DNA of 64,000 bases from Methanosarcina acetivorans C2A (GCF_000007345.1 NC_003552.1:5208001-5272000); one strand, 5' to 3'. Positions 11,724-57,600 are shown, numbered from the stretch's first letter. Translations and numbers: made by a program. Notes: generated from the sequence alone by a model not told the origin.

Positions 11724-11863
11724 CAGTCATTTCCTGCTTTCTTCAAAGGTCCGAAAATCCTTAAACCAAAAAAATTTCCTGCCCGAGAAAACCGATTATC
11801 AAATATTCGGGGGTCCGGACATTTCCGCGCAGGCAGGCTGAAACCCTATGAAAAATAGGAGAA
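11724..11863 (+). ncRNA. Structured 5' leader element, second type, of the 11.9-18.4 kb gene
   Basis: CAGTC and CCTGC pair with GGCTG and GCAGG; GTCCG pairs with CGGAC. The terminal hairpin is CCTATGAAAAATAGG with the ribosome-binding site in its 3' arm. Here the ATG in the hairpin is in frame with the gene, so an eight-residue N-terminal extension can be read. Confidence 0.7.
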
Positions 11864-11871
11864 ACGAAAAT

Positions 11872-34293: not shown

Positions 34294-34433
34294 CAGTCGC
34301 TTCCTGCTTTCTTCAAAGGTCCGAAAATCCTTGAACCAAAAACAATATTCTGTCCGAGCAAACCGTATACCAAATCTTCGGGGGTCCGGACATTTCCGCG
34401 CAGGCAGGCTGAAACCCTATGAAAAAAGAGGAA
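34294..34433 (+). ncRNA. Structured 5' leader element, second type, of the 34.4-40.5 kb gene
   Basis: CAGTC and CCTGC pair with GGCTG and GCAGG; GTCCG pairs with CGGAC. It ends in ACCCTATGAAAAAAGAGGAA, the ribosome-binding site of the gene. Confidence 0.7.
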
Positions 34434-34438
34434 TAGAA

Positions 34439-37400
34439 ATGCAAAAAAAAAGGTTTTTTGTTCTGACAACAATAATGCTTTTACTTTCCATAGCCATGCT
34501 GGCCATGCCAGCTGTTGCTATCGGTGAAGCAACAATAACAAGAACGATCACTCCCTCAGAAGTATCTGACGGAGATACCTACAATGTAACCCTTACAGTT
34601 TCTTTCAACATCGATGAGGATTCCATCGCAATACATGAAGCCCTTCCTGCAGACTGGAATCTTACTGAAGTTGACAGTGGACGTTACATCTGGAACACTT
34701 CCGAGGAAGATTATACATTTCTGGATTTTTACGGCACAGCCAACCTCACCGGCGTCACTGACACCATAACCTACAGTGTCACAGTGCCCGACGGAACAGT
34801 ATCCGGTACCTATGACTACGGACCAAGCTATGTTGCCGGTGAATCTGCAAGTGAGGAGGAATTTGCATGGACGGAAAATACCATAGGTGATAACACTGTG
34901 ACCGTCAACGGGACCATCCTCAACATTTATTCTACTGCACTGGAGAACACCAATCCTGGGGCGCCAGATCCGGGAATACCAGGTTTCGTAGGTCCGAACG
35001 GTGACGGCAAGACCGACTGCGGCACCGTGAACCCTATATTTATAACCTGGGCCAGCACGGTCGTGGACTACTCTCCAGCCAACCAGAGCATCACGGCAGG
35101 ATTTTCTAATCCGAGCCTCGCCCTCGGTCCGGTGACCGGCGATAACTTCAACATCGTCAGCCTGGGAGATCTCGATCAAGATCAGATAAATGCAGGCGAA
35201 CTACCTGGATCCGTAACTCTCGGGTTCGATTTACCCATAGCTAACGGCGAAGGACCGGACCTGGCGGTTTTTGAAAATGGTTTCATCGCCACAGGCACGG
35301 AGAAAATATTCGCCGAGCTCGCTTATGTGGAGGTATCCACTGACGGCATCGTCTTCGCGCGCTTCCCCTCGATATTCCTGACTTCCGGAGAGGTAGGCGG
35401 ATATGGAAGTATAGATCCCACCGATGTATACAACCTGGCAGGGAAGCACGTCAATGCTTATGGAGATTCCTGGGGTACGCCCTTCGACCTGAGCACCCTT
35501 GCGCAGGCACCCGAAGTGCTGAATGGGAGCGTGAACCTTAACTCCATCAACTACGTCCGCATCGTGGATATTCCGGGCAGCGGGGACTTCAAGGACTCCC
35601 GGGGCAATCCCATTTATGATGCCTGGGTGACCTGGGGTTCAGGCGGATTGGACCTGGAGGCGGTTGGCGTCATAAACGTTGGTGTGGTTAGTGCACCAGT
35701 GGCGAACTTCACCCCCGATGTGACCTCCGGGACCGCACCGCTTACGGTACATTTCAATGACGAGAGCACTGGCGTAATATTTGACTATGCCTGGGACTTC
35801 AATAACGATGGGATTGTGGACTCAACCTTACAGAACCCCTCGTTCACCTACGAGGCCCCCGGCACATACACTGTCTCACTGACGGTATCCAACACAGGCG
35901 GATCGAGCACCGAAACCAAGGCCGATTACATCGTCGCCGCCCTGCCGGACTCACCGGTAGCCGATTTCTCCGTTGATGTGACCAGTGGCTCCGCTCCCCT
36001 GACCGTGCAGTTCACTGACCTTACCACCAACGGACCGGTCAGCTGGGCCTGGGACTTTGAGTCCGATGGCATAATCGACTCGTACGAGCAGAATCCCTCC
36101 TGGACATATAATGCCGCTGGTAACTATACAGTGACTATGACAGCCACTAACCTGGTGGCTTCGGATACTGTCACCAGGGTCAATCTGACCTCCGTGGAAA
36201 ATTTGCCACCGATGGCTGATTTCTCAGCTGATCCTGTGGCCACTTTAATAGGATGCAGCGTGCAGTTCACTGACCTGTCTACGAACTCTCCGACCTCCTG
36301 GCAGTGGGACTTCAACAATGACGGTACAATTGACAGTACGATGCAGAATCCGAGCTACACATATACGACCGCGGGAACATACACCGTCAATCTGACGGTG
36401 AGCAATCCTGCAGGAAGCGGTGACGAAGTCAAGACTGACTACATCGTCGTGAAAGAGCAGGCCTCTCATGCCAGTGATTTTACATATACCAGTGACGGCA
36501 GCTCTATCACCATCACTGAATACACGGGGTCGGATGGTATTGTCATCATACCCGCGGAGATCGAGGGACTGCCTGTCACTACTATCGGTGCCAGCGCGTT
36601 CTACGGCTGCTCTGCCCCGACAACTGTAACCATCCCGAACAGCGTCACAACCATCGGCGACAGCGCGTTCCAAGATTGCTCCGCTCTGACAACAGTGAGC
36701 ATCCCCGACAGCGTCACAACCATTGGCGATAATGCATTCATGAGCTGCTCCGCTCTGACAACTGTGAACATCCCCGACAGCGTCACAACCATTGGCAATT
36801 ATGCATTCCAGGATTGCTCCGCTCTGACAACAGTGACAATCGGTAGTGGCGTCACTACCATCGGCACCAGCGCGTTCCAGGATTGCTCCGCTCTGGCAAC
36901 AGTGACAATCGGTAGCGGCGTCACTACTATCGGTACCAGCGCGTTCCAGGATTGCTCCGCTCTGACAACTGTAACCATCCCGGACAGCGTCACAACCATC
37001 GGCGACAGCGCGTTCGGCGGCTGCTCCGGACTGACAATAGTTACCATCGGCAGCGGTGTTACGAGCATCGGCGGGGTTACGAGCAGCAGCAGTTTTGTGT
37101 TCTCTGATTGCCCTACTCTGATTGCGATCGATGTTGATACCGATAACAGTGCGTATGCCAGCATCGACGGAATCTTGTACAGCAAAGACGCCACAACTTT
37201 GATACGATGTCCATTAGGAAAGACCGGTCCAGTATCCGTCCCGAACAGCGTCACAACCATTGAAAGGGTTGCGTTCTCTGGCTGCACCGGTCTTACCTCT
37301 GTGGCTATTCCGGACAGCATCACCAGCATAGGCGATTATGCGTTCAGTTCTTGCTCTGCTCTGACCGCGATCGATGTCGATACCGATAACAGTGTGTACG

Positions 37401-40400
37401 CCAGCATCGACGGAATCCTGTACAACAAGGACATCACAACTTTGATACGATGTCCGCCAGGAAAGACCGATCCTGTAACCATCCCGGACAGCGTCACCAC
37501 CATTGATGTCTCTGCGTTCTCTGGCTGCACCGGTCTTACCTCTGTGACCATTCCGGACGGTGTCACCAGCATCGGCACCTATGCGTTCTACGGCTGCTCC
37601 GGACTGGCAACCGTGACCATCCCGGACAGCGTCACCACCATTGATGCCAGTGCGTTCCGTGACTGCACCGCCCTTGCCTCTGTGACCATCGGAAACAATG
37701 TAACCAGCATCGGCTACTATGCGTTCCGCGACTGCTCCGGACTGACAACAGTGACCATCCCGGACAGCGTCACCAGCATCCCAAGCTATGCGTTCAGTGG
37801 CTGCTCCGGACTGACAGCAGTAACCATCGGCAGCGGAGTCACCAGCATAGGTGAGAATGCGTTCTCTGGTTGCTCTGCTCTGGCCGCAATCGATGTCGAT
37901 ACCGATAACAGTGTGTACGCCAGCATCGATGGTATCCTGTACAACAAGGCCATCACAACGCTGATACAATGTCCCTCTGGACAGACAGGTTCTGTAACCA
38001 TCCCGGACAGCGTCACCAGTATCGGGAGACTTGCGTTCCTCGACTGCAGTGCCCCGATTGTCATGGTGTTCGAGGGCAACGCGCCGACGGTAGCCACGTA
38101 CTGGAATTATAATTGCCCTAATATAGCAGTCTACTACTACGAAGGGGCTACCGGCTTCACAACCCCGCTGTGGAATGGTGTTCCGTGCTACCCTGCTCTC
38201 GTCGCCGCGACCGGCAATTTCAGCTCGAACATCGTCTATGGCAGCGCACCGCTCACGGTAGAGTTCACCTATACGGGCGTGGGAGCGAACACGTTCGCCT
38301 GGGACTTCGGCAATGACGGCACGGTGGACAGCACGGCGAGGAACCCCGGTTATACCTATAATGTACCCGGTACCTACTCGGTCAGGCTGAATGTCAGCAA
38401 CCCCTGGGGCAGCGACAGTGAGGTCAAGACCGACTACATCACCATAGTCGAACCGGTCGATAACTTTACCTATATCTCCGACGGCACCTCGGTGACCATA
38501 ACCGGTTACACTGGTCCGGTCGGCGATGTCGTCATACCGAGCACGATCAAGGGCATGCCTGTTACAACCATCAGCGCCAGTGCGTTTAAGAGCAATACCA
38601 ACATCACCTCGGCGACCACACCGGACAGCGTCACCAGCATAGGTGACAACGCGTTCCAAAGCTGCTCCGGACTGACAACAGTGACCATCGGCAGCGGAGT
38701 CACCAGCATCGGCGACAGCGCGTTCTACGGCTGCAACGCCCTGACCTCGGTGACCATAGGAAACAATGTCACCACCATCGGCACCTATGCGTTCCGCGGC
38801 TGCACCGCCCTTACTTCGGTGACCATCCCGGACAGCGTCACCAGCATCGGCACCTATGCGTTCTATGGCTGCACCTATCTTACCTCGGTGACCATCGGAA
38901 ACAATGTCACCAGCGTCGGCAGTAGTGCGTTTCAGGACTGCAGCGTTCTGACCTCGGTAACCATCCCGAACAGTGTCACCGAAATCGGCAGCCATGCGTT
39001 CCGCGACTGCACCACCCTTACTTCGGTGATCATCCCGGACAGCGTCACCAGCATCGGCAGCAGTGTGTTCCGTGACTGCAGCGCTCTGACCTCGGTTACC
39101 GTAGGAAACAATGTCACCAGCATCGGCAGCAGTATGTTCCGCGACTGCACCGCCCTTACCTCGGTGATGTTCACGGGCAATGCTCCTGATTCTGTGAGCA
39201 GCAGCTGGGTGGATGGATGTCCCGACCTGGTGGTGTACTACTACGAAGGTGCCACCGGCTTCACCACACCGATGTGGAACGGCGTCGCCTGTTACCCGCT
39301 GGCAGTGGCACCGGTGGCGGACTTCGAGGCCGACGTGATATCAGGAATCGGCCCTATGATTGTGAATTTCACCGACCTGTCCACCAGATCTCCGGATACC
39401 TGGGAATGGGACTTTGATAACGACGGAACTGTGGACTCAACTGAGCAGAACCCCTCGTATACATATACTTCAGCCGGTACTTACACTGTCAACCTTACGG
39501 TTGCGAATGCAAACGGTACCGATTCCGAGCTAAAGACTGATTACATCATTGTATCTTCTACACCTGCAGAACCTGAACCGATTGCTGCTTTTACTGCTAA
39601 TATAATTGCCGGAACTGCTCCTCTCACTGTGAATTTCACGGACCAGTCCACAGGTTCACCTACTGCCTGGGCATGGGACTTTGACAACGACGGAAACGTG
39701 GACTCAAGCGAACAGAACCCGAGCTACACTTATAATGCAGCCGGAAATTACACCGTAAATCTGACTGTAGAAAATGCCGCTGGCATGGACTTCGAGTTAA
39801 AAACGGATTACATAGAAGTTTCCGAAGCTTCCGGGTCAACTGTAACTCTCTATTTCGACCCGGAAAGTTCCTCAGTTGCAGAAAACGAATCTACTGAAAT
39901 AAATCTCGTTGCAAGCAATTTCCCTGAAGGCTTTTCGGGCTACAACCTGACCATTGCTATCGACGACCCGGCTGTTGCCGAGATCGTGGACATCGAGTAC
40001 CCGACCTGGGCTTTGATTACTGAAAACTCTTCCCTGCCCTGGACTTCAATCTACCTGAAGGCTGTTGACGGAGAAGATACCGTAAAGGAAGGAGGAACAG
40101 ATGTTGTGCTTGCAACTCTTACGGTTTCTGGAAAGGAGAAAGGATCTGCGAATCTATCCATAGGAGTTGACCGTCTGGATGACGATTCAGGAGAAACTAT
40201 AGAGCCAGAGTTTTTAACCGGAAAAATTGAAGTAACCCTTCTTTCTCCTCTTCCTGATCAGGAATATGCTCCAAAAGATCTCAATGGAGATGGACTATAT
40301 GAAGACCTTACTGGGAACGGCGAGTTCAGTTTTGTGGATATTGTGGCGTACTTCCATAACATGGACTGGATAGAGGAAAATATGCCGGTGGAGTACTTCG

Positions 40401-40462
40401 ACTTCAACGGAAATGGAAGGATAGACTTTGATGATGTGGTGGATATGTTTGCAATGATATAA
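34439..40462 (+). CDS. Secreted FENGF/PKD/BspA-LRR protein with cohesin-like and dockerin-like tail
   Basis: Exported mosaic of 2007 residues, a sister of the 19.5-24.8 kb gene. The frame is open upstream to 34331 but that part is leader RNA; the chosen ATG gives MQKKRFFVL as in the sister and follows GAGGAAT. The signal peptide is 1-27 and a beta-rich domain covers 29-155. The 'FENGF' domain is about 160-415, with NGEGPDLAVFENGF and 'FAELAYVEVSTDG'. Three PKD domains follow (417-675), then about 17 LRRs (677-1254) with 'YASIDGILYNK' inserts, a PKD-like domain, about nine more LRRs (1340-1623), two PKD domains, a cohesin-like domain (1797-1935) and dockerin-like loops (1939-2007). Compared with the sister the array is split and extra PKD domains are present, so modules shuffle between paralogues. 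Confidence 0.95.
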   Translation: MQKKRFFVLTTIMLLLSIAMLAMPAVAIGEATITRTITPSEVSDGDTYNVTLTVSFNIDEDSIAIHEALPADWNLTEVDSGRYIWNTSEEDYTFLDFYGTANLTGVTDTITYSVTVPDGTVSGTYDYGPSYVAGESASEEEFAWTENTIGDNTVTVNGTILNIYSTALENTNPGAPDPGIPGFVGPNGDGKTDCGTVNPIFITWASTVVDYSPANQSITAGFSNPSLALGPVTGDNFNIVSLGDLDQDQINAGELPGSVTLGFDLPIANGEGPDLAVFENGFIATGTEKIFAELAYVEVSTDGIVFARFPSIFLTSGEVGGYGSIDPTDVYNLAGKHVNAYGDSWGTPFDLSTLAQAPEVLNGSVNLNSINYVRIVDIPGSGDFKDSRGNPIYDAWVTWGSGGLDLEAVGVINVGVVSAPVANFTPDVTSGTAPLTVHFNDESTGVIFDYAWDFNNDGIVDSTLQNPSFTYEAPGTYTVSLTVSNTGGSSTETKADYIVAALPDSPVADFSVDVTSGSAPLTVQFTDLTTNGPVSWAWDFESDGIIDSYEQNPSWTYNAAGNYTVTMTATNLVASDTVTRVNLTSVENLPPMADFSADPVATLIGCSVQFTDLSTNSPTSWQWDFNNDGTIDSTMQNPSYTYTTAGTYTVNLTVSNPAGSGDEVKTDYIVVKEQASHASDFTYTSDGSSITITEYTGSDGIVIIPAEIEGLPVTTIGASAFYGCSAPTTVTIPNSVTTIGDSAFQDCSALTTVSIPDSVTTIGDNAFMSCSALTTVNIPDSVTTIGNYAFQDCSALTTVTIGSGVTTIGTSAFQDCSALATVTIGSGVTTIGTSAFQDCSALTTVTIPDSVTTIGDSAFGGCSGLTIVTIGSGVTSIGGVTSSSSFVFSDCPTLIAIDVDTDNSAYASIDGILYSKDATTLIRCPLGKTGPVSVPNSVTTIERVAFSGCTGLTSVAIPDSITSIGDYAFSSCSALTAIDVDTDNSVYASIDGILYNKDITTLIRCPPGKTDPVTIPDSVTTIDVSAFSGCTGLTSVTIPDGVTSIGTYAFYGCSGLATVTIPDSVTTIDASAFRDCTALASVTIGNNVTSIGYYAFRDCSGLTTVTIPDSVTSIPSYAFSGCSGLTAVTIGSGVTSIGENAFSGCSALAAIDVDTDNSVYASIDGILYNKAITTLIQCPSGQTGSVTIPDSVTSIGRLAFLDCSAPIVMVFEGNAPTVATYWNYNCPNIAVYYYEGATGFTTPLWNGVPCYPALVAATGNFSSNIVYGSAPLTVEFTYTGVGANTFAWDFGNDGTVDSTARNPGYTYNVPGTYSVRLNVSNPWGSDSEVKTDYITIVEPVDNFTYISDGTSVTITGYTGPVGDVVIPSTIKGMPVTTISASAFKSNTNITSATTPDSVTSIGDNAFQSCSGLTTVTIGSGVTSIGDSAFYGCNALTSVTIGNNVTTIGTYAFRGCTALTSVTIPDSVTSIGTYAFYGCTYLTSVTIGNNVTSVGSSAFQDCSVLTSVTIPNSVTEIGSHAFRDCTTLTSVIIPDSVTSIGSSVFRDCSALTSVTVGNNVTSIGSSMFRDCTALTSVMFTGNAPDSVSSSWVDGCPDLVVYYYEGATGFTTPMWNGVACYPLAVAPVADFEADVISGIGPMIVNFTDLSTRSPDTWEWDFDNDGTVDSTEQNPSYTYTSAGTYTVNLTVANANGTDSELKTDYIIVSSTPAEPEPIAAFTANIIAGTAPLTVNFTDQSTGSPTAWAWDFDNDGNVDSSEQNPSYTYNAAGNYTVNLTVENAAGMDFELKTDYIEVSEASGSTVTLYFDPESSSVAENESTEINLVASNFPEGFSGYNLTIAIDDPAVAEIVDIEYPTWALITENSSLPWTSIYLKAVDGEDTVKEGGTDVVLATLTVSGKEKGSANLSIGVDRLDDDSGETIEPEFLTGKIEVTLLSPLPDQEYAPKDLNGDGLYEDLTGNGEFSFVDIVAYFHNMDWIEENMPVEYFDFNGNGRIDFDDVVDMFAMI
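36470..39310 (+). repeat. Split array of about 26 LRR-coding 69-bp repeats
   Basis: About 17 units (36470-38200) and about nine units (38460-39310) flank a PKD-like segment. Several units in 36600-37000 are almost identical at the DNA level, for example repeated GCGTTCCAGGATTGCTCCGC, pointing to recent local expansion. Confidence 0.85.
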
Positions 40463-40857: not shown

Positions 40858-41166
40858 ATGGCTCAATCCACACCGTCGCGTTGGAGCACAATATTTGAAG
40901 AGAGTGCATCAAATATATTTACAGTAATTCTTCAGAGATGTATAACTCAAAAAAATTTTGAAGCTGTGATGAATGTATACGAAAGTCAAGCGTTAGACCC
41001 GCATGTAAAAAGAGAAAGGTTCAGAGAAATTGTTTGAATAAGAAATAGAGGAATTGATCCAAAAAGAGTAAGAGGAAAAGGAATGAAATCCTTAACCTGT
41101 GACCAATGTATTAAACTCTTACTCAAAACACTTACAGGAAATACTTTACTGAGACTTTCATCATAA
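40858..41166 (+). pseudogene. Possible broken small gene
   Basis: From ATG at 40858 a frame reads MAQSTPSRWSTIFEE... to a TGA at 41035, then continues without a break (IRNRGIDPKRVRGKGMK...) to TAA at 41164. The composition and continuation look protein-like, suggesting one gene split by a nonsense mutation. I do not recognise the family. Its end overlaps the stop of the convergent minus-strand gene. Confidence 0.3.
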
Positions 41167-42288
41167 ACGCTTTCTCTTTACTATTATTACAGCAGAAATT
41201 ATAATTCCCGCTCCTGTGAGAATAGAGCAAAATCCGGGACTGGCTTCCGCATCATTTTCTTCTTCATTTTCACTTTCAACAGAATTTCTGGTCTCCATTT
41301 CTTGAATACCGGATTCTTCTTCATCTGCTTTGACTTCAGTTGAATATCCAGTTTTCTGTCCGGTTATGGCAAATGGAGAGAAACCGGAAGTTTTAGCCTC
41401 GAAATAGAAATATTCATCATCTTCATCCACTTTTTCAGCCGAAAGTGAATTCCATATATCATCATCAAAGTGCTGGAGAGTGATTGAATCTATATCAATC
41501 TCATTTTCTGTGACCCAAGCTTTGCTTACCTTGAAACCAACGCTTGAATTCTCAATGTTTTCCGGGGTTGCAAAACCTTCGTTTCCTACCCAGATATTCA
41601 GGTACCGATAAATATTTCCTTCGGGTTCGGTTGGAGTTAGCGTCGATTTTTCTTTCAACTCTTCAACAATAGTGGTGATTTTTCCTGCACTCTTTTTGGC
41701 ATCAAATTCTATATAAGTAACTGGAGTGGCGTTCTGCGGAAACTCAAATTTAATATGATTTCCGTTTGTAACAAACTGCTGGGAAATTTCCTTTACCTTA
41801 ACGTTACTGGCGGGTTCGGGAGAACCTCCACCGCCGCCAGAAGAACTGCTGGAAGAACCACCGGAAGAACCACCGGAAGAACTGCCGGAATTGGAATTAA
41901 CCACATCAACATGGACCGGGACCCGTATCCCGGTCATCACTTCAGTTCCGGAAGTTGGATAAACCAAAATTTTACAGTCCACATCAGTTTCGGCAGAAGA
42001 AGGCACAGCGAGTATTACTTTTACTTCTTTGTTTTCCCCGGCCTGGAGAGTAAAAGAAGAGGGAGATATAGAGAACCAGCTCTCATATGTAGAATTATCG
42101 ATATTGATTTCATAACTTGCAGATTCGCTGCCAGTATTAATCACGTATAACAATTGTTCTTCCTGAGCCCCGGGATTAAGCTCGAAACTCATCTTTCCAG
42201 GGCTGACTCCTACTCCTACCTCTGCTGCAGATACAGCCTGTACCGATATGAGAAATATGGTCATAATTATTGCAATTTTTTTAAGCAT
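41161..42288 (-). CDS. Membrane-anchored PGF-pre-PGF domain protein
   Basis: Exported protein of 375 residues. The signal peptide is 1-22 (cut after VSA). A beta-sandwich (about 23-130, VGVSPGKMSFELNPG...) is followed by a Ser/Gly linker (131-157). Residues about 158-310 match the PGF-pre-PGF domain of archaeal surface proteins (HIKFEFPQNATPVTYIEFDA...'YFEAKTSGFSPFAITG'). An acidic stalk leads to the C-terminal tail ASPGFCSILTGAG, a hydrophobic helix and KRKRL, which is a PGF-CTERM-like archaeosortase sorting signal. The protein is therefore probably processed and lipid-anchored at the outer membrane face. GAGGT lies nine bases before the start. The propeller gene lies 143 bases upstream on the same strand and may share its transcript. 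Confidence 0.93.
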   Translation of the reverse strand: MLKKIAIIMTIFLISVQAVSAAEVGVGVSPGKMSFELNPGAQEEQLLYVINTGSESASYEINIDNSTYESWFSISPSSFTLQAGENKEVKVILAVPSSAETDVDCKILVYPTSGTEVMTGIRVPVHVDVVNSNSGSSSGGSSGGSSSSSSGGGGGSPEPASNVKVKEISQQFVTNGNHIKFEFPQNATPVTYIEFDAKKSAGKITTIVEELKEKSTLTPTEPEGNIYRYLNIWVGNEGFATPENIENSSVGFKVSKAWVTENEIDIDSITLQHFDDDIWNSLSAEKVDEDDEYFYFEAKTSGFSPFAITGQKTGYSTEVKADEEESGIQEMETRNSVESENEEENDAEASPGFCSILTGAGIIISAVIIVKRKRL

Positions 42289-42431
42289 ATTATATACCTC
42301 AAAGTGTTTTTTATCTTAATACATACAGAACTTTACAATAATTTGAAAATTAAAATAATGAAGTCAGGAGGGACTTTGGGATATTTCATAACGTATTCCA
42401 CACCTGAAATATGGGATAGAAAGAACAGGTT

Positions 42432-43925
42432 TTATACCTCCTCCCCCCAGAAAATCAAACTTTCTCCTGCTTGATCCAGCTCTCCTTCGTATCCGGCAGG
42501 CACATCAAGCACGAGTTCCACTTCTTCCGTGTTTAGGCTTGAGATCAGCTGTGAATATTGGTTCCAGAAATTGGACCCTAAGAAGAGCGAATCATTGTAC
42601 AGCTGAGTGTTGCCTTCTTCAGGTTCGGCTGAAATGGTCACATTAGAGTTTCCGGCATTAGTGATATTCAGGTGTACGACGCTTCTCTCGCCAGAAGCCA
42701 GAGACCCAAAATCAAGATCGGACATATTGCACTTGATAGAAACCGATGGCAAAACTTCTTCAGGGTCGGCAAAGGCATAGACCCGTCCGTCAGCTCCAAT
42801 TGTGAAGAGTATCCCGTCGGAAATTGCAGGTGAAGCGCCCCCAGAGGGATAACTCCAGACTACATCCCCTGTATAAGCATCGAGAGCATATGTGTCAGCG
42901 TATCCGAAGTAATCATCTTCGGCGTATTTTCCTACAAAAACCATACCATCTGCAACCGCAACTGATGCGGTCCAGCCCCCGATCTTATCTTCGGCAGAAG
43001 TATTCCAGACCAGTTCATGGGTTGTTGCGTCGAAACAGTAAGTTTCGATTGTGCTAAATCCGGGGCATCCACCCGAGATATAGACATTACCGTAAGCAAT
43101 AGCCGGGGTGGTAGAAACATCGGTGCTTGGAACGGTTTCACTCCAGAGGATTGAACCGTCTTCGGCGTCCAGGGCGTAAAGATTTCCGTCGTAAGTGGTT
43201 GCATAGACAACCCCCTCAGAAACTGCAGGAGACCCGCCTGCCTCGTAAGATAGCGTCTGGTTCCAGAGCTCGTCCCCATTCTCCGCATCGACGCAGTAAA
43301 CGTGACCCGGAGAACTAAAGAGTGGCCCGCTTGTCATGTAAACCTTTCCTTCGCAATAAGCTGGTGTGCCAATGGCAACCCCGGTAACTGTAAAGTTCCA
43401 GAGTTCCTCTTCGGTTTCGGCGTCCCTACAGTAATAATGGTGAGATTCTCCATCACTATCGAATACTTTCCCATCTGCAACCATTGCCCCACCGTTGAGA
43501 GCATCCGCCCGTCCATACCATATCTTTCCGTTGTCATAGCAAAGAGAAGACCAACAGGGTGTAACCAGACCTATTTCGTCGGAAGAAATTACATTGCCCG
43601 TAAATTCATCAATGGTCACTATCCTTAATTCATCGGGATTTGTTGACATCGAGTCGGGAGCGTGGTCTACTCCACACTTGACAAAGACTTTCCCGTCAGC
43701 TATAACAGGCGAAGAGCTGGGAATTGCCCAGATAGGATCGCTTACCCAGAGCAGTTTATCAGTATCAGGAGCTTCACCCGAGGAGAAACCGGTGTGTGCA
43801 ACGTCTTTATGGAACTGGCTCCAGGTATCGGTATTGTTAGAAGCCATGGTTGTTGAGGAAAGTAATAAAATGAACAGAAAAAACAGAATAACTGGAATAA
43901 ATTTTATTTTTACATTCAGATTCAT
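42432..43925 (-). CDS. Secreted PQQ-propeller protein with a beta-rich C-terminal domain
   Basis: Exported protein of 497 residues. The signal peptide is about 1-28, a hydrophobic stretch ending in TTMAS. One PQQ-like propeller (about 32-385) begins 'DTWSQFHKDVAHTGFSSGEAP', like the second propeller of the first gene. The C-terminal domain (about 390-497; LDFGSLASGE...LFLGSNFWNQY...VPAGYEGE) is homologous to that of the first gene (LDFGELYPGK...WNNYWK...VPADYAG), so this family exists in a minimal propeller-plus-tail form. No PKD or membrane anchor is present. It could resemble the ancestral architecture from which the large mosaics grew (inference). Confidence 0.93.
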   Translation of the reverse strand: MNLNVKIKFIPVILFFLFILLLSSTTMASNNTDTWSQFHKDVAHTGFSSGEAPDTDKLLWVSDPIWAIPSSSPVIADGKVFVKCGVDHAPDSMSTNPDELRIVTIDEFTGNVISSDEIGLVTPCWSSLCYDNGKIWYGRADALNGGAMVADGKVFDSDGESHHYYCRDAETEEELWNFTVTGVAIGTPAYCEGKVYMTSGPLFSSPGHVYCVDAENGDELWNQTLSYEAGGSPAVSEGVVYATTYDGNLYALDAEDGSILWSETVPSTDVSTTPAIAYGNVYISGGCPGFSTIETYCFDATTHELVWNTSAEDKIGGWTASVAVADGMVFVGKYAEDDYFGYADTYALDAYTGDVVWSYPSGGASPAISDGILFTIGADGRVYAFADPEEVLPSVSIKCNMSDLDFGSLASGERSVVHLNITNAGNSNVTISAEPEEGNTQLYNDSLFLGSNFWNQYSQLISSLNTEEVELVLDVPAGYEGELDQAGESLIFWGEEV

Positions 43926-44520: not shown

Positions 44521-44547
44521 AAACCTGACCTTTCAATCGAAGGTCAG
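44500..44547 (-). terminator. Terminator hairpin of the CobN-like gene
   Basis: CTGACCTT (44525-44532) and AAGGTCAG (44540-44547) form a perfect 8-bp stem around a 7-base loop. On the minus strand it overlaps the stop codon and is followed by CACTTTTTTCTTTTTC, a T-rich tract. Confidence 0.55.
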
Positions 44548-47500
44548 AGTTTCTTTCTTCTTATCCCTATATAGATTGCACTGAGACTTGCAATTACAAA
44601 GAGCACCCCCACGATATCGGCTCCTGAAAAAGACATCCCCGAAGAGGGACTTTCTTTCTGGATGGCTTCTTTTTGCATCTCATACCCTTCAATATAATTG
44701 GAGTCCCCCGTTTTCTGTGTGTCCGGGACAGGCTGGCTTGTGTCCGTGCCGTACCCTACATCCGAAATGTCTGCTTGCGTCTGGTTTCCCGAGCCGGAAA
44801 CAACTTCGGCTTTCCCAGTGCTACTGCCAGAATGGGACTTATTTTCCTCTTCCTCAGGTTCACTGGGCGTTGTAGGATCTTTGTTATCGAGTTCACTGGA
44901 TGTTGTAGCATCTTCCATTGCTTGACTGAAGCCGGGTATGGATACAAGACCTTCCACAAATTCGGTGAGAAGGACGTTCCCGCAGGTATGATGACAGCAG
45001 GTTGCCCCGTTTTCTGCAACAGACTCGGCATATGCTGTTGCAAGACTCTCAAGAGTCCCGGAGTCACAGTCCCAGTAACCTTTGCGGGCAGCTTCCAGCA
45101 TCCTTCCCGTGATTGATTGGAATGATCCGGGGCTGTTGTCATCAAACCATTCCTGCATCTCAGGGTCATCGATATAGGTCTCATAGATATTTTCCCAGAC
45201 CTCGTCGCTGATGAGGTCAGTGGTGACCTCCCAGCCCCAGACATTATCTACAAACTCGGAAAACATGGAGGCACCGGAGTACCCGGATCCCATCATGCCT
45301 TCTATCCACTTGTCGTTAAAGTAAGTGGAACGCAGGTTTTTACTGAGGTATTCTTGCAGGGTGACCATTTCAGCGCCATCCGCGTCTCTGGTATCCGAGA
45401 CATACATCTCGGGATATTCCCCGGTAAGGTAGTAGACCGCAAGGTTCAGGCCTCCGAAATACTGGAAGAAATCATCGTTATCAAAAGCATCGTAGAGGTT
45501 TGATGTCGAGGAATGGACGCTGGCGTCCACATCCGCAAGGTTCTGGGCAAAAAGCTCCGAACTTTCATAACCCCATATTTCGCTTCCGTAAGCATACCCC
45601 ATGGTGTTCAGGTAAAGTTCCGCAATCGCCTCCTCATCGTCCCAGTTTCCGCTGGCCTCTACCAGGTTGGATACCCCGAGCTCGTAGGTCCCGTCTTTCA
45701 CGGCATAACAGCGCATGGTAGAAAGGGTTTCCGCAAGAGCGGCAGCCTCCGTGGCGTTTCCGGTCTCATTTAAGTATTCTTCATATAGTTCGTCGTAGAG
45801 TGCCTGCGTGCTTTCATTCACATAGTTCGGATAGTTGCCAGCCGGTGCAAGGTTTGCAAGCTTTACCGCATCATCAACCATCTCGATTTTATCCGGAAAA
45901 GCATCCCTCATCCCGGCCGTTACGTAAACAATGTCTATCCGCGGTCTTCCGGGCATTGAAGAATCGTAGCTGGGCAAAAGCTCTTCTTCCGGGATCAGTT
46001 CCACTCCCTGGACTACACCGTTATCGTCCCAGACAGGCTTTACCCCCAGCAGGTAAAGAATCTCGGCTTCAAGGGTCCCGTGGTCCTGAATAAAGTCCAC
46101 CCCGAACCTGGAGAATGCAACTTTGTGAGGATAATCTCCATATTTCTCATAATAGTCCACTAGCAGCCCCTGGGCCAGGAGTTTTCCCATCTTCCAGGTG
46201 GCTTCCGAGGGATAGAGCTCCGGGTTTATTCCATAAAAGTTTCGGCCGGTGGGGACGGCATCCGTCCGGGATACCGGATCGTTTCCGGGCCCAGGAGGGA
46301 TATAGCAGCCGTCGAGGGCAGAAAGAATACGCTCCAGTTCCACATCCGAATCCAGAAGTCTCTGTTTGTACTCAAGCCCGGTAAGCAGGTCCTCGCTTAT
46401 AGTGTCGTTTGTGGTCCCATAGACGGCCAGCTGTGCCTCTTCAGGGTTGGAATCCATGACGATCACTTCCCTGATCATCCTGTCGACCTTTGTGTCAGTA
46501 AGGGGAACTCCCAGCGGATACTCCGTGGTATTCGAATAGAAAGCCGCTTCGACTCGAGATTCAAAAGAGCTCCCGAGCATTGAACGGACCATGTATGCCA
46601 GTTCATCCCAGTGGGGATAAAGGATCTGGTCTTTGTAATCAGCCCCGAATTCGAGATCTGCTGTTACCGAGGAATTGTTCCAGCCGTATAACTGGTTCTG
46701 GGCTTCTTCAGAGTCTGCACTCTCACAAACCACTTTCCAGAGAAGATCATCCGGTTTCGTATCGTTTTCCGGGATTCCTTCCGGGTATCCGGTGGTATTT
46801 GAATAGAATGCGGTTTCGAGATCAGCTCTGAGTTCTTCTCCCACGATTAGCTTGACGAGAGAGAACAGTTCCGAATCATCGGGTTCAAGTACCGAGTCCA
46901 GATATCCGAGCCCCCGTTCAAGGTCCGAACTTACCAGGGGGTCACTCCGGCCGTAGACCAGGTTCTGAGCTTCCTGAACATCCGTTCCGTCACGTATCAC
47001 TTCCCAGATCAGGTTATTGACCTTCGTATCATTCTCAGGTATCCCTTCCGGATACTCCTGATAAAAGGCATTCGTCAAATTAGCCTCAAAGCTGCTGCCC
47101 AGCAGGGCTCTGATAACGTCAGTAAGTTCGTCCTCCTGAGGGTCAAGGCTGTTACAGGAAGGAACCTCGGATAGGACGTGCATTCCATAGGCGATGTAAT
47201 CTCCCTCGATATCTTCAATGTACTGATGCAGAACGTCCCTTACGAAGAGATCAAACTCGGTGGTGTTATAGGCAATCAGTTCGGTTGTGTTGACTCCGAG
47301 TTCCTCGTCAAGGGACAGGCTGTCCATTTCTTCAATAATCTCCGCCTGGTAGGCAACTTTGGTCTGAGTGTTCATCTCGAGCCCGTAATATTCCTGCATG
47401 AGCCTTGTGAGGTTTTCCAGTTCCGCGTATGCCCCTGCCCTTTCCATAGTAGGAGTAAGGTGGTCGATAATAAGGGCATTTCCACGATATTCTGCAGTCT

Positions 47501-50500
47501 GCCCCTCTCCCACATTAGCCACGATATAGGGGTAGATATTGGGAAGGTCCCCGAGCAAAATAGGGGACCATTCACTCGTCCTGTTCATCCCGCAGGCCTG
47601 GCCGGGCAGCCATTCATGGGTGCCGTGGGTCCCCATATGGATTATTGCATCCGCCTTGAACTCGTTATTTAACCACATGTAAAAGGCAATGTACTGATGA
47701 GTAGGTGGGGTCTCACTGCTGTGATACAGAGCCTCCTCATCCTGGAAGAATCCTCTTGCAGGCTGAGGCATAAGCCAGACACTTCCGCACCTGACGGCCG
47801 GGAGTACAACATATCTTCCACTACTGTTTTCCCATATCATGGGGCTGGAGTCCATCTCATCGGATTTATTCCAGGGCTCTCCCCATTTTTCTACCACAGA
47901 GGTTTGAAGCTCTTCGGGAAGGGTTTCAAACCATTTGTGGTAGGTTTCTATGGGAACCAGTTCAACACCCCAGTCCTCCCTGTTTTCCACGAGGTTATCG
48001 AGCATACCTTCGGCCCAGGACCCTGCGTTGTAGCCCTGAAGCATTAACCGATCCAGAAGTTCGTCCGAATCTTCAGGGACATAATCTATGTCATAGCCGT
48101 TTTCCTTCATAACCTCAAGAAGTTTACATAGACTTGTTACGCCGTCAAGATAGCTTGCAGTTGCGACATTATCTTTGCCTGAAGGATAGTTGTAATAGAT
48201 TACTACGACTTTCTTTTCGGAATTCTCCTTGCGCTTGAGCTCGGCCCATTTGATGGAGCGGTTCGTAATCCAATCTACCTGGGCAGGCATCGGGACGTAC
48301 TCATAAAAACCGGTGGTACTGTTTTTTTCACTCTCGCCAAGAACAATATATTCGAAGATCCCGTCCATGTCAGGGCTGATAGTTTTGCGGACGACCTGAT
48401 CGGTAGGAATCCCGCGGCTGCTGTCTGCAATGTCCTCATATTCTATTTCTTCAACCACAATACCCCTCAGGACCGAAACATTGAGATTTTCAAGTTCTTC
48501 AATTCCCTGTTCGGGGTTGTTGTAATTTAGCCTGAAACTTTTAAGGGAAATCATGCACTGAACCAGGGGGGCCCCGCTTTCATCACAGTAATACTCCGTG
48601 ATGTTGTCGAAAGTGTCAAAACCTGCAATCACATTACAGTCCCTGTCTTCAAGATCCCGGATCAGGGCATCAACAACTCCGGTATATCCGTTTTGAATGT
48701 CAGTCCTATGGAACCAGATCCCGATGGTGGGCCTTTCAGGGTCATAGCTCCTGTGGCTTTCAGCACCAAGCTCGTACCAGGCAAGGTATGTTGAAGTGTC
48801 CTCAAAATAAAAGGACTCGTTTTCAGAGCCGGGATAATAGAGCCCCACCATCGGGATACTGCTTCCGGAACTTTCGATATATGACCAGTCTCCGGTAAGG
48901 TCCTGGTTCTTGCCGTATGTTTTTGAGAGATAGATCAGCAAGTTCTCGGCGTTTTCGAGCCCTTCATCTGTTTCTGCACTCATATTGAGGAAGTAACTGC
49001 AAAAGGTATTGTTCTCCGAACCGTCGTAAGCATAATCCACATAGTCAGGAGCAAGGGATGGTGGATCAAATGAATAGATATCTATGACTGTCGTCCCGTT
49101 TGCATGTGCTTTTTCTAAATATTCCCCGAGGGCTTCATAGATATCGCTGCTCAACATATCACATACAACAACGTCCTGCATTTCCAAAAGCCCGGATTCT
49201 CCAGCAATTAATGCCTCATCACTCGGGCCTGAACTGCCGTTATATGCATTAAGGTTCAAAAGTTCGATACCGGAGCTATAAGGGTTTGTCTGCTCTGCAA
49301 GTTCAAGGGCAGAGTTGGCTCCATAGCCCAGGTACGCTATATGAACCAGATCCCAGTCATTGGTTATTTCCGGGCGGTTAGCATAGTTTTCCGCAAGATA
49401 GTGCAGGAGGTATTCGGCGTTCTTCTGCCGGACCGTCCCATCAGTGCCCATATAGCGATATAAATTACAAATAGGGTCATCGGCAAGGCCATCGGAAACA
49501 TAATCAAAATAAGAAGGAGTGCCTGAGGAATTGAAGCTTACAAAAGCCGTTCCCTCTGTGTGCGCCTGCCAGAAGGTATCATTCAGGGTCCCGTAGATTG
49601 AAGATGAAAACCGGTCACAGAATATCAGGTCCTGTTCTTCGATCAGTCCGCTTTCTGCTGCTGACAGCAGATCAGCGCTGGGATCTCCGCTACTGTCGTA
49701 TGCCTTGATGTTGGTAAACTCAATCAAATTGCTGTATCGGCTGTTGTTGGCCGCCAGCTCAAGGGCATCGTTTGACTCCGGGCCCAGATACATAATTTTG
49801 ATTTCGTCCAGGTCTTCGAAAGTCCAGTCCTCTGTTAATATCGGGCGGAAGCCGTATTCTTTGGAGAGGTAGATCAACAGGTTTTCCGCGTTGTTTTTTT
49901 CTTCTCCGGTATCGATGCCCATGTTGTCATAGTAATAACCGATAGTAGTATCATAGTCTACCGGTCCCCCAAACTGCCCGGAAGTTGTTTCGTTGGTTTC
50001 ATAAGCATACACATAATTAAAAAAATTTTTCCAGGTCAATGCATGATCCTGGGGCTCAATATTTACAATATAAACTCCAGCGTTGCAGATATCAGAAAAC
50101 AGGTTTGAGTCATAATTGTAAATTGAACTGGAAAGATTATCACAGATCAGGATATCCTGCTCTTCCAGAATCCCGCTCGCGGCTGCAGTTTTCAGTTCGT
50201 CACCGGGGCCGTCTCCTGCCTCGTTGTAAGCTTCAAGGACCTGGAACTCGATATCGTCTCTGTAACGATTTGTTTGGTTTGCCAGTTCCAGAGAAGGGCA
50301 CCCGTTGTGCCCCAGATAAAGGATTTTTATTTTTGCCCAGTCCGCCTGATTAATGAGGCTTACGTTCCATTCGGCAGTGATATCCGACCGGTTTGCATAG
50401 TCCTTTGCAAGGCAGATAAGCAATTTTTCTGCATAATCAAGGCCTGTTCCACTGCCTCCCATTCTGTCATAATAGTAGCGAACAGGGTTTTTTCGCGAGT

Positions 50501-50900
50501 CCCTGTATACATAATCAAAAAATTCGGGCTCATTTTCAGACCGGATATCCACAAAAACGGTTCCGTTGTCATGGGCTCTTTTTAATGCGTCTTCTACACT
50601 ATCATATATGGGACTGTAAAGCATATCGCATAATATAACATCCTGTTCTTCGATAAGCCCGCTTTCAGCTGCATTCAGCAGGGAAGAGCTGGCCGCATAG
50701 GAGGAGCCGTATGCATTGACATTAGTGAAATTTATGTACTCACTATACTCATTCGTAGTGCTGGCTTTTTTCAGGGCGTAATTTTCTCCGTAACCCACAT
50801 ACATTACATTTATCTGATTTTCCGAAGCTGAAACAGCCGGTACAAGCAAAAAAACAAACAGTGCAATTAGTAACAATAAACTGTATTTAATTTTACTCAT
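44544..50900 (-). CDS. cobN: Secreted, membrane-anchored CobN-like chelatase large subunit
   Basis: A 2118-residue member of the CobN/BchH family, the ATP-dependent chelatase subunits that bind the tetrapyrrole ring during cobalt or magnesium insertion. The signal peptide is 1-26 (cut after VSA). Four related segments of about 160 residues (from about 30, 190, 368 and 518; motifs 'YLGYGANSALELA', 'ESGLIEEQDVI.CD') precede the CobN core at about 678-1975. The core has the family motifs GTHGTHEWLPGQACGMN (about 1092), 'PPGPGNDPVSRTDAVPTGRNF', 'GRPRIDIVYVTAGMRDAFP', 'FGGLNLAV' and 'WIEGMMGSGYSGA'. An acidic Ser/Thr linker leads to one transmembrane helix (about 2093-2112) and RRKKL. The export signal and anchor put the chelatase core outside the cell, where ATP is scarce; capturing tetrapyrroles or corrinoids is an alternative role (inference). 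No ChlI/ChlD-type AAA partner is in the window. The symbol denotes the family; the cobaltochelatase activity is unproven. Confidence 0.93.
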   Translation of the reverse strand: MSKIKYSLLLLIALFVFLLVPAVSASENQINVMYVGYGENYALKKASTTNEYSEYINFTNVNAYGSSYAASSSLLNAAESGLIEEQDVILCDMLYSPIYDSVEDALKRAHDNGTVFVDIRSENEPEFFDYVYRDSRKNPVRYYYDRMGGSGTGLDYAEKLLICLAKDYANRSDITAEWNVSLINQADWAKIKILYLGHNGCPSLELANQTNRYRDDIEFQVLEAYNEAGDGPGDELKTAAASGILEEQDILICDNLSSSIYNYDSNLFSDICNAGVYIVNIEPQDHALTWKNFFNYVYAYETNETTSGQFGGPVDYDTTIGYYYDNMGIDTGEEKNNAENLLIYLSKEYGFRPILTEDWTFEDLDEIKIMYLGPESNDALELAANNSRYSNLIEFTNIKAYDSSGDPSADLLSAAESGLIEEQDLIFCDRFSSSIYGTLNDTFWQAHTEGTAFVSFNSSGTPSYFDYVSDGLADDPICNLYRYMGTDGTVRQKNAEYLLHYLAENYANRPEITNDWDLVHIAYLGYGANSALELAEQTNPYSSGIELLNLNAYNGSSGPSDEALIAGESGLLEMQDVVVCDMLSSDIYEALGEYLEKAHANGTTVIDIYSFDPPSLAPDYVDYAYDGSENNTFCSYFLNMSAETDEGLENAENLLIYLSKTYGKNQDLTGDWSYIESSGSSIPMVGLYYPGSENESFYFEDTSTYLAWYELGAESHRSYDPERPTIGIWFHRTDIQNGYTGVVDALIRDLEDRDCNVIAGFDTFDNITEYYCDESGAPLVQCMISLKSFRLNYNNPEQGIEELENLNVSVLRGIVVEEIEYEDIADSSRGIPTDQVVRKTISPDMDGIFEYIVLGESEKNSTTGFYEYVPMPAQVDWITNRSIKWAELKRKENSEKKVVVIYYNYPSGKDNVATASYLDGVTSLCKLLEVMKENGYDIDYVPEDSDELLDRLMLQGYNAGSWAEGMLDNLVENREDWGVELVPIETYHKWFETLPEELQTSVVEKWGEPWNKSDEMDSSPMIWENSSGRYVVLPAVRCGSVWLMPQPARGFFQDEEALYHSSETPPTHQYIAFYMWLNNEFKADAIIHMGTHGTHEWLPGQACGMNRTSEWSPILLGDLPNIYPYIVANVGEGQTAEYRGNALIIDHLTPTMERAGAYAELENLTRLMQEYYGLEMNTQTKVAYQAEIIEEMDSLSLDEELGVNTTELIAYNTTEFDLFVRDVLHQYIEDIEGDYIAYGMHVLSEVPSCNSLDPQEDELTDVIRALLGSSFEANLTNAFYQEYPEGIPENDTKVNNLIWEVIRDGTDVQEAQNLVYGRSDPLVSSDLERGLGYLDSVLEPDDSELFSLVKLIVGEELRADLETAFYSNTTGYPEGIPENDTKPDDLLWKVVCESADSEEAQNQLYGWNNSSVTADLEFGADYKDQILYPHWDELAYMVRSMLGSSFESRVEAAFYSNTTEYPLGVPLTDTKVDRMIREVIVMDSNPEEAQLAVYGTTNDTISEDLLTGLEYKQRLLDSDVELERILSALDGCYIPPGPGNDPVSRTDAVPTGRNFYGINPELYPSEATWKMGKLLAQGLLVDYYEKYGDYPHKVAFSRFGVDFIQDHGTLEAEILYLLGVKPVWDDNGVVQGVELIPEEELLPSYDSSMPGRPRIDIVYVTAGMRDAFPDKIEMVDDAVKLANLAPAGNYPNYVNESTQALYDELYEEYLNETGNATEAAALAETLSTMRCYAVKDGTYELGVSNLVEASGNWDDEEAIAELYLNTMGYAYGSEIWGYESSELFAQNLADVDASVHSSTSNLYDAFDNDDFFQYFGGLNLAVYYLTGEYPEMYVSDTRDADGAEMVTLQEYLSKNLRSTYFNDKWIEGMMGSGYSGASMFSEFVDNVWGWEVTTDLISDEVWENIYETYIDDPEMQEWFDDNSPGSFQSITGRMLEAARKGYWDCDSGTLESLATAYAESVAENGATCCHHTCGNVLLTEFVEGLVSIPGFSQAMEDATTSSELDNKDPTTPSEPEEEENKSHSGSSTGKAEVVSGSGNQTQADISDVGYGTDTSQPVPDTQKTGDSNYIEGYEMQKEAIQKESPSSGMSFSGADIVGVLFVIASLSAIYIGIRRKKL

Positions 50901-54622: not shown

Positions 54623-57600
54623 ATGAACAAACATACATTGAAAATATTTCTGATTTGTCTAACATTGCTCCTGGTGACGGCTGCTCAGCCGGTACTGGGC
54701 TCCGACTGGGCTCAGTTCCAGAGAGATGTCTATAACACAGGTGTAACTGCAGACAGGGCCCCTATAACGGACCCTATGAACTCCACACTTTCCTGGGAGT
54801 ATAAACTGGGAGCAAACGTTGATTCGGCTCCTATAGTGGCCGGAGACATGATGTATGCTCTGGCGGGTAACAATCACATCTATGCTTTTAACAGGACCAC
54901 AGGCGAACTTGTCTGGGAAGAATCCACAAGTGGGAGTCTCGGCTTCCTTATCGGGAACGCAGCAGTTGGAAACGGAACAGTCTTTGTGCCAACGTCCAAT
55001 GGGAAGATTTTTGCTTTTGACGCGCAAACAGGTAGCCCAAAGTGGAATAAAACCGTAAGCAGCTACACATATAATCAGATTGATACTCCTATTACTTATT
55101 CTGACGGCAAAATCTACTTCGGGGAAGCAATGGGACAATCCCGCAATTATTTCTGCCTGGACGAAAACGGCAACCAAGTCTGGAGCCGCCCTGCAACGAC
55201 TAAAGTAAGCAGTCAGGGGCCCTACTATTGGGCAGGAGCTACAGTAATCGGGGACTACCTCGTTTATGGAGACAATGATGGACACATTGTTTCCGTGAAT
55301 AAGGATACTGGAACTGACATTGCTGAAATAAATGTCTCTGAAGAGTTCGGGGTAGACTGTAAAGAAATCCGATCCTCAATCCTTTATGTTGAAGACCTGG
55401 GAAGAGTCTACTTCACGTCTACGGGAGGATACTGCTTTGCTCTTGGTTTTAACCCTGCCGACGGGACCTTTAAGACATCCGACAAACACAGTGTAAACAT
55501 TGCCTATACCTCTACCACAACTCCTGCCTATTACAACGGAAGAATCTACATAGGTTCGGGAGAAATAATGAAAGCCAATGGAAATGGGGTTTATTGCCTT
55601 GATGCCGATCTGACCGGCGTGATCTGGAATTACCCTGTTGGCGGCACAGGTCTAGTTCAGTCTTCCCCGGCAATCTCCACATACTACGACAATGGGGACG
55701 GAGAAGTCTACATATACTTCACGGTAAACGCAAAACCCATAGGGGGCGTGTACTGTCTCAAGGACTTACCAGGTTCAACGAGCCCTGAACTTGTCTGGAG
55801 TTACGTCGAAAGTGGCAAAACAGACTTTTCTCTTCCGGGAGTCGCAATCTCTGATGGCTGGGTCTATTACGGAACCGACAACAAATACATCTTCGGACTC
55901 ACAACTCCTGATTTGCAGGTTCCTGAAGCACCTACCGCTGACTTCAGCGCGACACCCGTTTCTGGAGAAGCACCTCTAACTGTCAGCTTCACCGATCTTT
56001 CCATGGGCGATGGAATTACCACCTGGGCATGGGACTTTGATTCCGACGGAAACGTGGACTCAAGCGAACAGAACCCAAGCTATACCTATAACGATGCAGG
56101 TAGCTATACCGTTAAACTGACTGTCAGCAACGAAAACGGTAGTGATGTCCTGGAAATTCCGGAAATGATCACAGTTAAAGAAACTGTAGTTTCCGACGAT
56201 ACATGGTACCAGTTCCACAAAGACGCACAGCACAGCGGGTATAGTAGCTCTGATGCTCCTGACAGCGCTGACCTTGCATGGATTGCCGAGCCTCTTAATA
56301 ATACGTATTCCCTTGTTCCGAGTTCAAGCGTGGTTATTGCCGAAGGAATGGTCTTCGGGCTCTGCAACGGCCCTGTCGATGACTATGGTAACCCTCTGAC
56401 TTCCGAGGGCCAGCTTGTTGCCTTTGACGAGAACACGGGAGAAGAAATCTGGAATGTAACCGTTATGGCTCCGGAATGGGGTTCATGGTCATGTCCTGCT
56501 TACGATGATGGAAAGGTTTTCGCATCTGCAGGGAAAAACACTTACTGTGTAAATGCTTCCACCGGAGATATCATCTGGACATTCCAGAACCCGAGTGAAC
56601 TTGCATCATGTAACGGCGGCCCTTCAATAGGAGATGGAAAGGTATTTGCCAGCGACTGGGACGGAGGAAATTATTACTGTCTTGATGAAAACACGGGAGA
56701 ACTTCTGTGGACTTTCAAGATAGATGGGCTCTATGCACAGTCTACTCCTGCTTACAAAGATGACAGGGTATATCTTTCAGGATGGACTACCGTAAATGCA
56801 GTCTACTGCGTAAATGCAACCACTGGAGAACTGATATGGGAAAATGAAGAGTTATCAAGCAACCCGTGCGGGTCCATAACAGTTACCGAGGAAGGGCTCT
56901 ACCTTTCTATTTACAGTTTCGGGACAGAGGATGGGTTCTACAAGCTTGACCTGACCGACGGACATGAAATATGGGGAAGACCCGATATACCCCCTACGGA
57001 TTCAACACCAGCTGTGGTAAATGGAAAAGTCTATTTGTCGGCGGGTACGGCAGGATACAGTGACCTCAATACCTATTGCCTGAATGCCTCTGACGGGAAA
57101 ACAATATGGGTAACTGATTCTTCTGAGAATATAGGAGACTGGGTATGTTCACCTGCTGTTGCGGATGGAAAAGTCTTTACAGGAGGGGCAGCTGAAGGAC
57201 TTTTTACTGGCTCTTCAACACTCTATGCTTTTGATGCAGAAACAGGAGCAGTGATCTGGAGTTATAAAGGCTGTGGAGGCTCACCGGCAGTTGCAGACGA
57301 TATGGTATTCAGTACAGGAAGCGGAAAACTTTACGCTTTCAAAGAAGCAGAAGTACTTCTCCCTGAAGCAAAATTCAGCTCCAATGTGAGTTCAGGAGAA
57401 GCTCCCCTGACTGTCGGCTTCACCGACGAATCAACTGGAGAAGGCATCACAGCCTGGGAATGGGACTTTGACAACGACGGAAACGTGGATTCCATTGAGC
57501 AGAACCCGATCCATACTTATGACAATGCAGGCAGTTACACTGTCAACCTCACCGTGACCAGTGCAGAGGGAAGCGATTCCGAGGTGAAGGATGCATATAT

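Follow-up and report, generated by a model that had tools for sequence, protein, structure and literature searches.

A membrane-anchored, exported relative of HmuS with multiplied chelatase head domains, predicted in Methanosarcina acetivorans C2A

The nearest characterised exported proteins of CobN type are HmuS/BtuS of Bacteroidota (PMC12583661, PMC6460266). HmuS, a membrane-anchored heme de-chelatase that converts heme to protoporphyrin, depends on NADH and not on ATP, runs in the direction of metal removal and is inactive as the H538A variant (PMC12583661). The hmu operon is annotated with an ExbB-type HmuU and a DUF2149 HmuV (PMC10434189), and in our own assignments Bacteroides HmuU likewise fell in the MotA_ExbB family and HmuV in DUF2149. 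Archaea have been stated to be without this operon (PMC12583661). Homologues in M. barkeri have already been named BtuS, for metalloporphyrin salvage; these CobN-like proteins vary with the iron/sulfur source and were said to have to act on internal heme (PMC10846266). An earlier note on the DNA studied here, made from the sequence alone, took an exported CobN-type protein as an oddity. With HmuS and BtuS as precedent it is not one, and the missing AAA partner, which that note reported correctly for the surroundings of the gene, is expected.

The gene lies in a window of 64,000 nucleotides, the whole stretch of DNA that was analysed. Its features and two of its neighbours are, in window positions:

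44544-50900, minus strand: whole gene, ATG start, for an exported, membrane-anchored CobN/HmuS-type protein of 2118 amino acids
50826-50900, minus strand: signal peptide spanning roughly residues 1-25, with cleavage near AVSA-SE (hydropathy and direct sequence reading)
50385-50819, minus strand: extra head domain 1, residues 28-172 (repeat comparison, AlphaFold model, PDB matches)
49836-50339, minus strand: extra head domain 2, residues 188-355 (repeat comparison, HMM)
49368-49811, minus strand: extra head domain 3, residues 364-511 (repeat comparison, HMM)
48897-49352, minus strand: canonical head domain immediately ahead of the neck, residues 517-668 (repeat comparison, HMM, position in a paralogue)
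45057-48965, minus strand: CobN/Mg-chelatase core PF02514, residues 646-1948 (Pfam profile match)
47610-47639, minus strand: HMGTHGTHEW, residues 1088-1097, with H1092 aligned to the catalytic His538 of HmuS
46401-47150, minus strand: domain IV region with three tandem repeats of about 75 amino acids, residues about 1251-1500 (read by eye)
45450-45506, minus strand: TSNLYDAFDNDDFFQYFGG, residues 1799-1817, with S1800 aligned to HmuS S1199, D1810 to H1209 and Q1813 to E1212
44977-44999, minus strand: CCHHTCGN motif, residues 1968-1975, immediately before the stalk (motif comparison)
44631-44948, minus strand: acidic stalk bearing sequons, residues about 1985-2090 (sequence)
44562-44630, minus strand: C-terminal transmembrane helix, residues about 2091-2113, followed by RRKKL (hydropathy)
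42432-43925, minus strand: exported PQQ_2 beta-propeller protein, a neighbour conserved in other Methanosarcina
41161-42288, minus strand: PGF-pre-PGF surface protein, a neighbour conserved in other Methanosarcina

Hydropathy windows above 1.6 were restricted to residues 1-28 and 2088-2115, with the maximum of the signal peptide (2.7) at residues 7-8. The signal peptide and the C-terminal stalk with helix described in the earlier note hold. The core, which had been called complete, matched PF02514 with 1016 bits over profile positions 7-1088 of 1090, and the four named motifs were located at residues 1088 (HMGTHGTHEWLPG), 1535 (PPGPGNDP), 1651 (GRPRIDI) and 1873 (GYSGA). The protein contains 38 N-glycosylation sequons, against 16.5+/-3.7 in shuffled sequences. 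Three further Methanosarcina genomes encode full-length orthologues, 79-88% identical; dN/dS among them is 0.13, and the stalk evolves fastest of the parts compared. Our search of the surface-proteome literature found no mention of the protein.

Twelve PF02514 genes were found in the genome, ten for exported and two for cytoplasmic proteins. Sequons were enriched in 10/10 exported paralogues, and the two cytoplasmic CobNs hold 2 and 3. The latter adjoin ABC-transporter-type genes, as read directly from the ORFs, and lie near one of the three AAA_lid_2 (ChlI-type) genes of the genome, a ChlI-like protein with AAA and VWA parts; all three AAA_lid_2 genes are away from the window gene. The family tree was built from 62 proteins, comprising archaeal exported, bacterial DUF2149-linked exported, HmuS and cytoplasmic CobN/ChlH sequences. 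Exported proteins, HmuS included, separated from cytoplasmic CobN/ChlH with a support of 0.985-0.988. Within the exported part HmuS formed a clade of its own (support 1.0) with the window protein placed in the sister group, and the exported proteins other than HmuS grouped together at 0.91-0.95. In the C-terminal half the score was highest for HmuS (274 bits), followed by CobN (228) and ChlH (195).

The earlier note had also counted four duplicated segments before the core. All four were confirmed, segments 2-4 being 35-45% identical to the first, but the fourth is the core's own head, located where the paralogue at 465002-469360 has its single head, so the extra copies number three. An HMM seeded with the four repeats and iterated on archaeal exported proteins only found 1-5 copies per exported protein, always N-terminal. 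It matched 51/82 HmuS heads at E<1e-3 (profile comparison probability 96%) and, among about 3,650 other ORFs, nothing except one HmuS fragment. Because neither an HMM nor hhalign detected HmuS heads from the four window repeats alone, the link to HmuS needed the wider archaeal set and a structure comparison. AlphaFold modelled repeat 1, from an alignment of the four repeats only, with a pLDDT of 86.9. The best six PDB matches of this model were heads of ChlH (Z 11.5), HmuS (9.5) and CobN (9.2), the next one being an unrelated Rossmann-like fold at Z 9.1 and other unrelated folds lower; in Foldseek HmuS was the sole match below 1e-3. Profiles and the predicted fold identify all four N-terminal repeats as copies of the head found in class I chelatases. 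In the head tree every window head paired with the orthologue's head of equal number, and the fourfold state is therefore older than the split between the two species. Other proteins carry near-identical, recent copies, hence head amplification occurred repeatedly. All four window heads are under purifying selection (dN/dS 0.08-0.30). M582 of the canonical head and M93 of head 1 fall one residue off the position of HmuS Met79 in a loop; a Met near this position is present in 35/42 canonical archaeal heads vs 15/47 extra heads. Equating the YxxxMG of the repeats with Met79-Gly80 of HmuS was rejected, as Met79 belongs to the loop that follows strand three.

The likeness to HmuS (PDB 9d26) comprises export, a C-terminal membrane helix, a class I core, membership in the common exported clade, and sister copies in the same genome adjoining HmuU- and HmuV-type genes. 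In the alignment both the catalytic His of HxGTHG (H1092) and the propionate-site Ser (S1800) are retained. There are also differences. HmuS has one head and the window protein four; the HmuS motif LSLDHxxEFMGG, with His1209 and Glu1212, is replaced by AFDNDDFFQYFGG with Asp and Gln; and neck His254 of the HGR motif is absent, the aligned segment ISLKSFRLN being without His. The Met-rich insert is also absent: residues 1251-1500 contain 4 Met, against 19 within a span of 130 residues in B. faecis HmuS, and the domain IV repeats sit where HmuS has the insert. Self-BLAST of the window protein did not report these repeats, and an AlphaFold model covering residues 900-1965 of the body, made with nine HmuS sequences, reached a mean pLDDT of 54.7, failed in domain IV and was set aside. 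Since H1092 is kept yet the second active-site His, the neck His and the Met-rich insert are absent, sequence comparison identifies the window protein as HmuS-like, not HmuS. The replacement of His1209/Glu1212 by Asp/Gln and the absence of His254 and of the insert also mean that direction and substrate are not readable from the sequence; heme, F430 or a corrinoid may be the substrate.

The motif before the stalk, CCHHTCGN, which like the domain IV repeats is absent from the earlier note, occurred in 39/42 archaeal exported proteins and 0/7 cytoplasmic ones. At this site HmuS reads CSGFVCDN and the Trichlorobacter relative CCDHTCNN; the site is not discussed in two papers on HmuS. CCHHTCGN is a candidate site for metal hand-off or for a disulfide.

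The earlier note proposed looking for corrinoid or iron transport genes beside the gene in related genomes. What three other Methanosarcina genomes keep there is the beta-propeller gene and the PGF-pre-PGF gene, and neither a transporter or metal gene nor hmuU/hmuV was found in the neighbourhood of the window gene. Inferring the metal from these neighbours was accordingly dropped. The lack of HmuUV beside the window gene itself is an observation that speaks against HmuS-type removal. The suggestion of an extracellular role in tetrapyrrole or metal exchange keeps the backing of the exported clade, the sequons and the HmuS precedent, while the adjacent surface proteins, which had been part of it, give no clue to a metal.

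At three other loci of the genome, genes for DUF2162, MotA/TolQ/ExbB and DUF2149 proteins adjoin exported CobNs. Among 41 Methanosarcinaceae, 34/42 DUF2149 genes were located within 6 kb of a CobN of exported size, all on the same strand, and six of the remaining eight were on contigs without CobN. DUF2149 was present within 20 kb of 52/80 long CobNs vs 0/12 short ones in these genomes (Fisher p=1.5e-5). In a sample of 197 genomes from the phylum all 64 genomes with DUF2149 also had PF02514 (64/64; hypergeometric p = 6e-18, genome relatedness not corrected). Profile comparison detected no homology between HmuT and DUF2162, and for this reason our claim of shared components is limited to HmuU and HmuV. 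As family assignments and gene order indicate, archaea possess that half of the Hmu arrangement which belongs to the inner membrane. For the other half there is no place, as these cells have no outer membrane; TonB receptor and HmuY are absent from the archaeon, as is HmuTUV from the window gene. The membrane part of the hmu operon thus accompanies archaeal exported copies. This modifies two published statements, one on the absence of the operon from archaea (PMC12583661) and one that confines M. barkeri BtuS to internal heme (PMC10846266).

We give a probability of roughly 0.55 to the reading that the window protein is an extracytoplasmic, membrane-anchored relative of HmuS that strips a tetrapyrrole of its metal on the outer side of the membrane, with its extra heads capturing the substrate. 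This reading builds on computed parts, namely the export signals, membership in the exported clade, intact His1092, the four heads and CCHHTCGN, and on the association of exported sister copies with HmuUV. A metallated tetrapyrrole would be bound from outside the cell, the heads serving as tethered capture or holding sites. The divalent metal would be removed in the body cavity, where His1092 would face Asp1810, without ATP or AAA partners, and would pass to a membrane importer, perhaps via the Cys/His motif. This importer could be FeoB, for which the genome has two genes, or the predicted DUF2162 transporter encoded beside sister copies, and the ExbB-like/DUF2149 pair might supply proton-motive energy or coupling. 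We know of no electron donor outside the cell, which counts against a removal mechanism, and the protein may instead serve metal insertion or storage only.

In favour of a strict heme de-chelatase, an archaeal HmuS that draws its iron from heme, are the shared clade, the HmuU/HmuV neighbours of the sister copies and the response of M. barkeri BtuS to the iron/sulfur source (PMC10846266). We consider it unlikely, given the absence of His254, His1209 and the Met-rich insert, and because bacterial relatives other than HmuS are found beside NikR, a NicO-like permease with hyp genes, or cobamide genes. Similarly doubtful is a non-catalytic surface binder, a tethered receptor or hemophore for tetrapyrroles that relies on its heads alone. 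The repeated and independent amplification of heads fits such a binder, and in the sister lineage of 448684-453309, with relatives in two other genera, the catalytic His was lost and the protein kept, so binding alone can be selected. In the window protein, however, His1092 and S1800 are intact and constraint is strongest in the body, with dN/dS of 0.07-0.12 for neck+III and V+VI.

Decidedly improbable is an exported chelatase that inserts metal, for instance to re-metallate scavenged rings prior to their import. CobN of M. tuberculosis and ChlH of Synechocystis (PDB 7c6o, 4zhj), of the enzyme types that supply vitamin B12 and chlorophyll with their metals, share the core fold family, the head and the His of HxGTHG with the window protein. 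The comparison of ring- and metal-binding residues proposed in the earlier note found the Asp1810/Gln1813 pair to be as in cytoplasmic CobN (D..Q), unlike HmuS (H..E). Metal insertion by CobN and ChlH depends on ATP-driven AAA partners, however; these are absent outside the cell and sit near the cytoplasmic CobNs, and the nearest characterised exported relative works in the removal direction (PMC12583661). CobN and ChlH further differ in being cytoplasmic, in their biosynthetic neighbourhood and in having one head and neither signal peptide nor anchor. That a cytoplasmic cobaltochelatase or Mg-chelatase was misread as exported is highly improbable, in spite of automatic annotation naming such proteins CobN, in view of the signal peptide, the C-terminal helix, the sequon count, the separate clade, the absence of biosynthetic-CobN traits (cytoplasmic location, AAA partners, cob genes nearby), and bit scores that stay under the curated thresholds of every equivalog model for CobN and BchH (TIGR02257, 557 against 822 bits; NF004645, 1169 against 1619; TIGR02025 for BchH/ChlH, 609 against 829).

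As to the metal, the DUF2149-linked exported CobNs of bacteria (Azospirillum, Diaphorobacter, Trichlorobacter, Runella) span Proteobacteria, Desulfuromonadia and Cytophagales. They mostly have the D..Q active site, have ExbB-like and DUF2149 neighbours like the sister copies of the window gene, and fall with the archaeal proteins in the tree (support 0.95); they differ in having at most one head, TonB receptors, and neighbours hinting at nickel or cobalt. Three examples carry the hint: the Azospirillum gene adjoins NikR, with TonB and ABC genes, the Runella gene hyp genes together with a NicO-like permease recognised by a weak Pfam match, and the Trichlorobacter gene lies in a cobamide gene region. 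By analogy with these neighbours there is a hint of nickel as the metal; the neighbours of further bacterial exported non-HmuS relatives examined gave no metal clue. Azospirillum retains the HmuS-like H..E pair, and the active-site pair is therefore not diagnostic of the metal. It seems quite unlikely that the ten multi-headed exported chelatases form a surface system that takes nickel out of F430 left by dead methanogens, or cobalt out of corrinoids, with tandem heads as a capture antenna and CCHHTCGN passing the metal on to an importer of its own; such a cofactor-metal recycling route is not known from any organism. Confirmation of the main reading, metal removal outside the membrane, would show that archaea mine metals from the cofactors of other cells at their own surface and that the chelatase head domain is a separable module, open to multiplication. 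One further sister, at 5460162-5464352, bears a TAG for which pyrrolysine was considered and rejected; a TAA is also present and the gene is a pseudogene, as has already been argued for a CobN homologue with TAG and TAA (PMC1914089).

Among the exported CobN-type proteins, one sister lineage of the window chelatase was found in three genera, one of them represented by M. acetivorans itself:
G000:C1:448684-453309 (-), M. acetivorans copy
L156:2060-6652 and L159:13662-17957, copies in two other genera
In this lineage the HxGTHG motif, which carries the catalytic histidine, was lost and replaced by FTIF, and CCHHTCGN was still present. These proteins are apparently catalytically dead chelatases, conserved across the three genera.

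Further exported CobN genes were the following:
L145:12864-18884 (-), five-headed protein from another genome
L182:3602-15560, Azospirillum brasilense plasmid p4 locus, with exported CobN, ExbB-like and DUF2149 genes
G000:C1:5460162-5464352 (-), M. acetivorans pseudogene with in-frame TAG and TAA
The first three heads of the five-headed protein are nearly identical to each other, a case of recent tandem amplification. The p4 locus encodes NikR, an ABC transporter and a TonB receptor as well, and has the appearance of a nickel-chelate uptake locus. A CobN homologue with TAG and TAA had at one time been put forward as a pyrrolysine-containing protein before being ruled a pseudogene (PMC1914089).

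Other genes in the window were:
41161-43925, beta-propeller and PGF-pre-PGF genes adjoining the chelatase
5634-10865, 11848-18369, 19517-24757, 27309-33005, 34331-40462 and 54623-60076, six giant surface proteins
The former pair is fused into a single 809-aa gene in another Methanosarcina (L140:1194-3623). The giant proteins have in common a near-identical, dockerin/EF-hand-like C-terminal tail, NMPVEYFDFNGNGRIDFDDVVDMFxMI.
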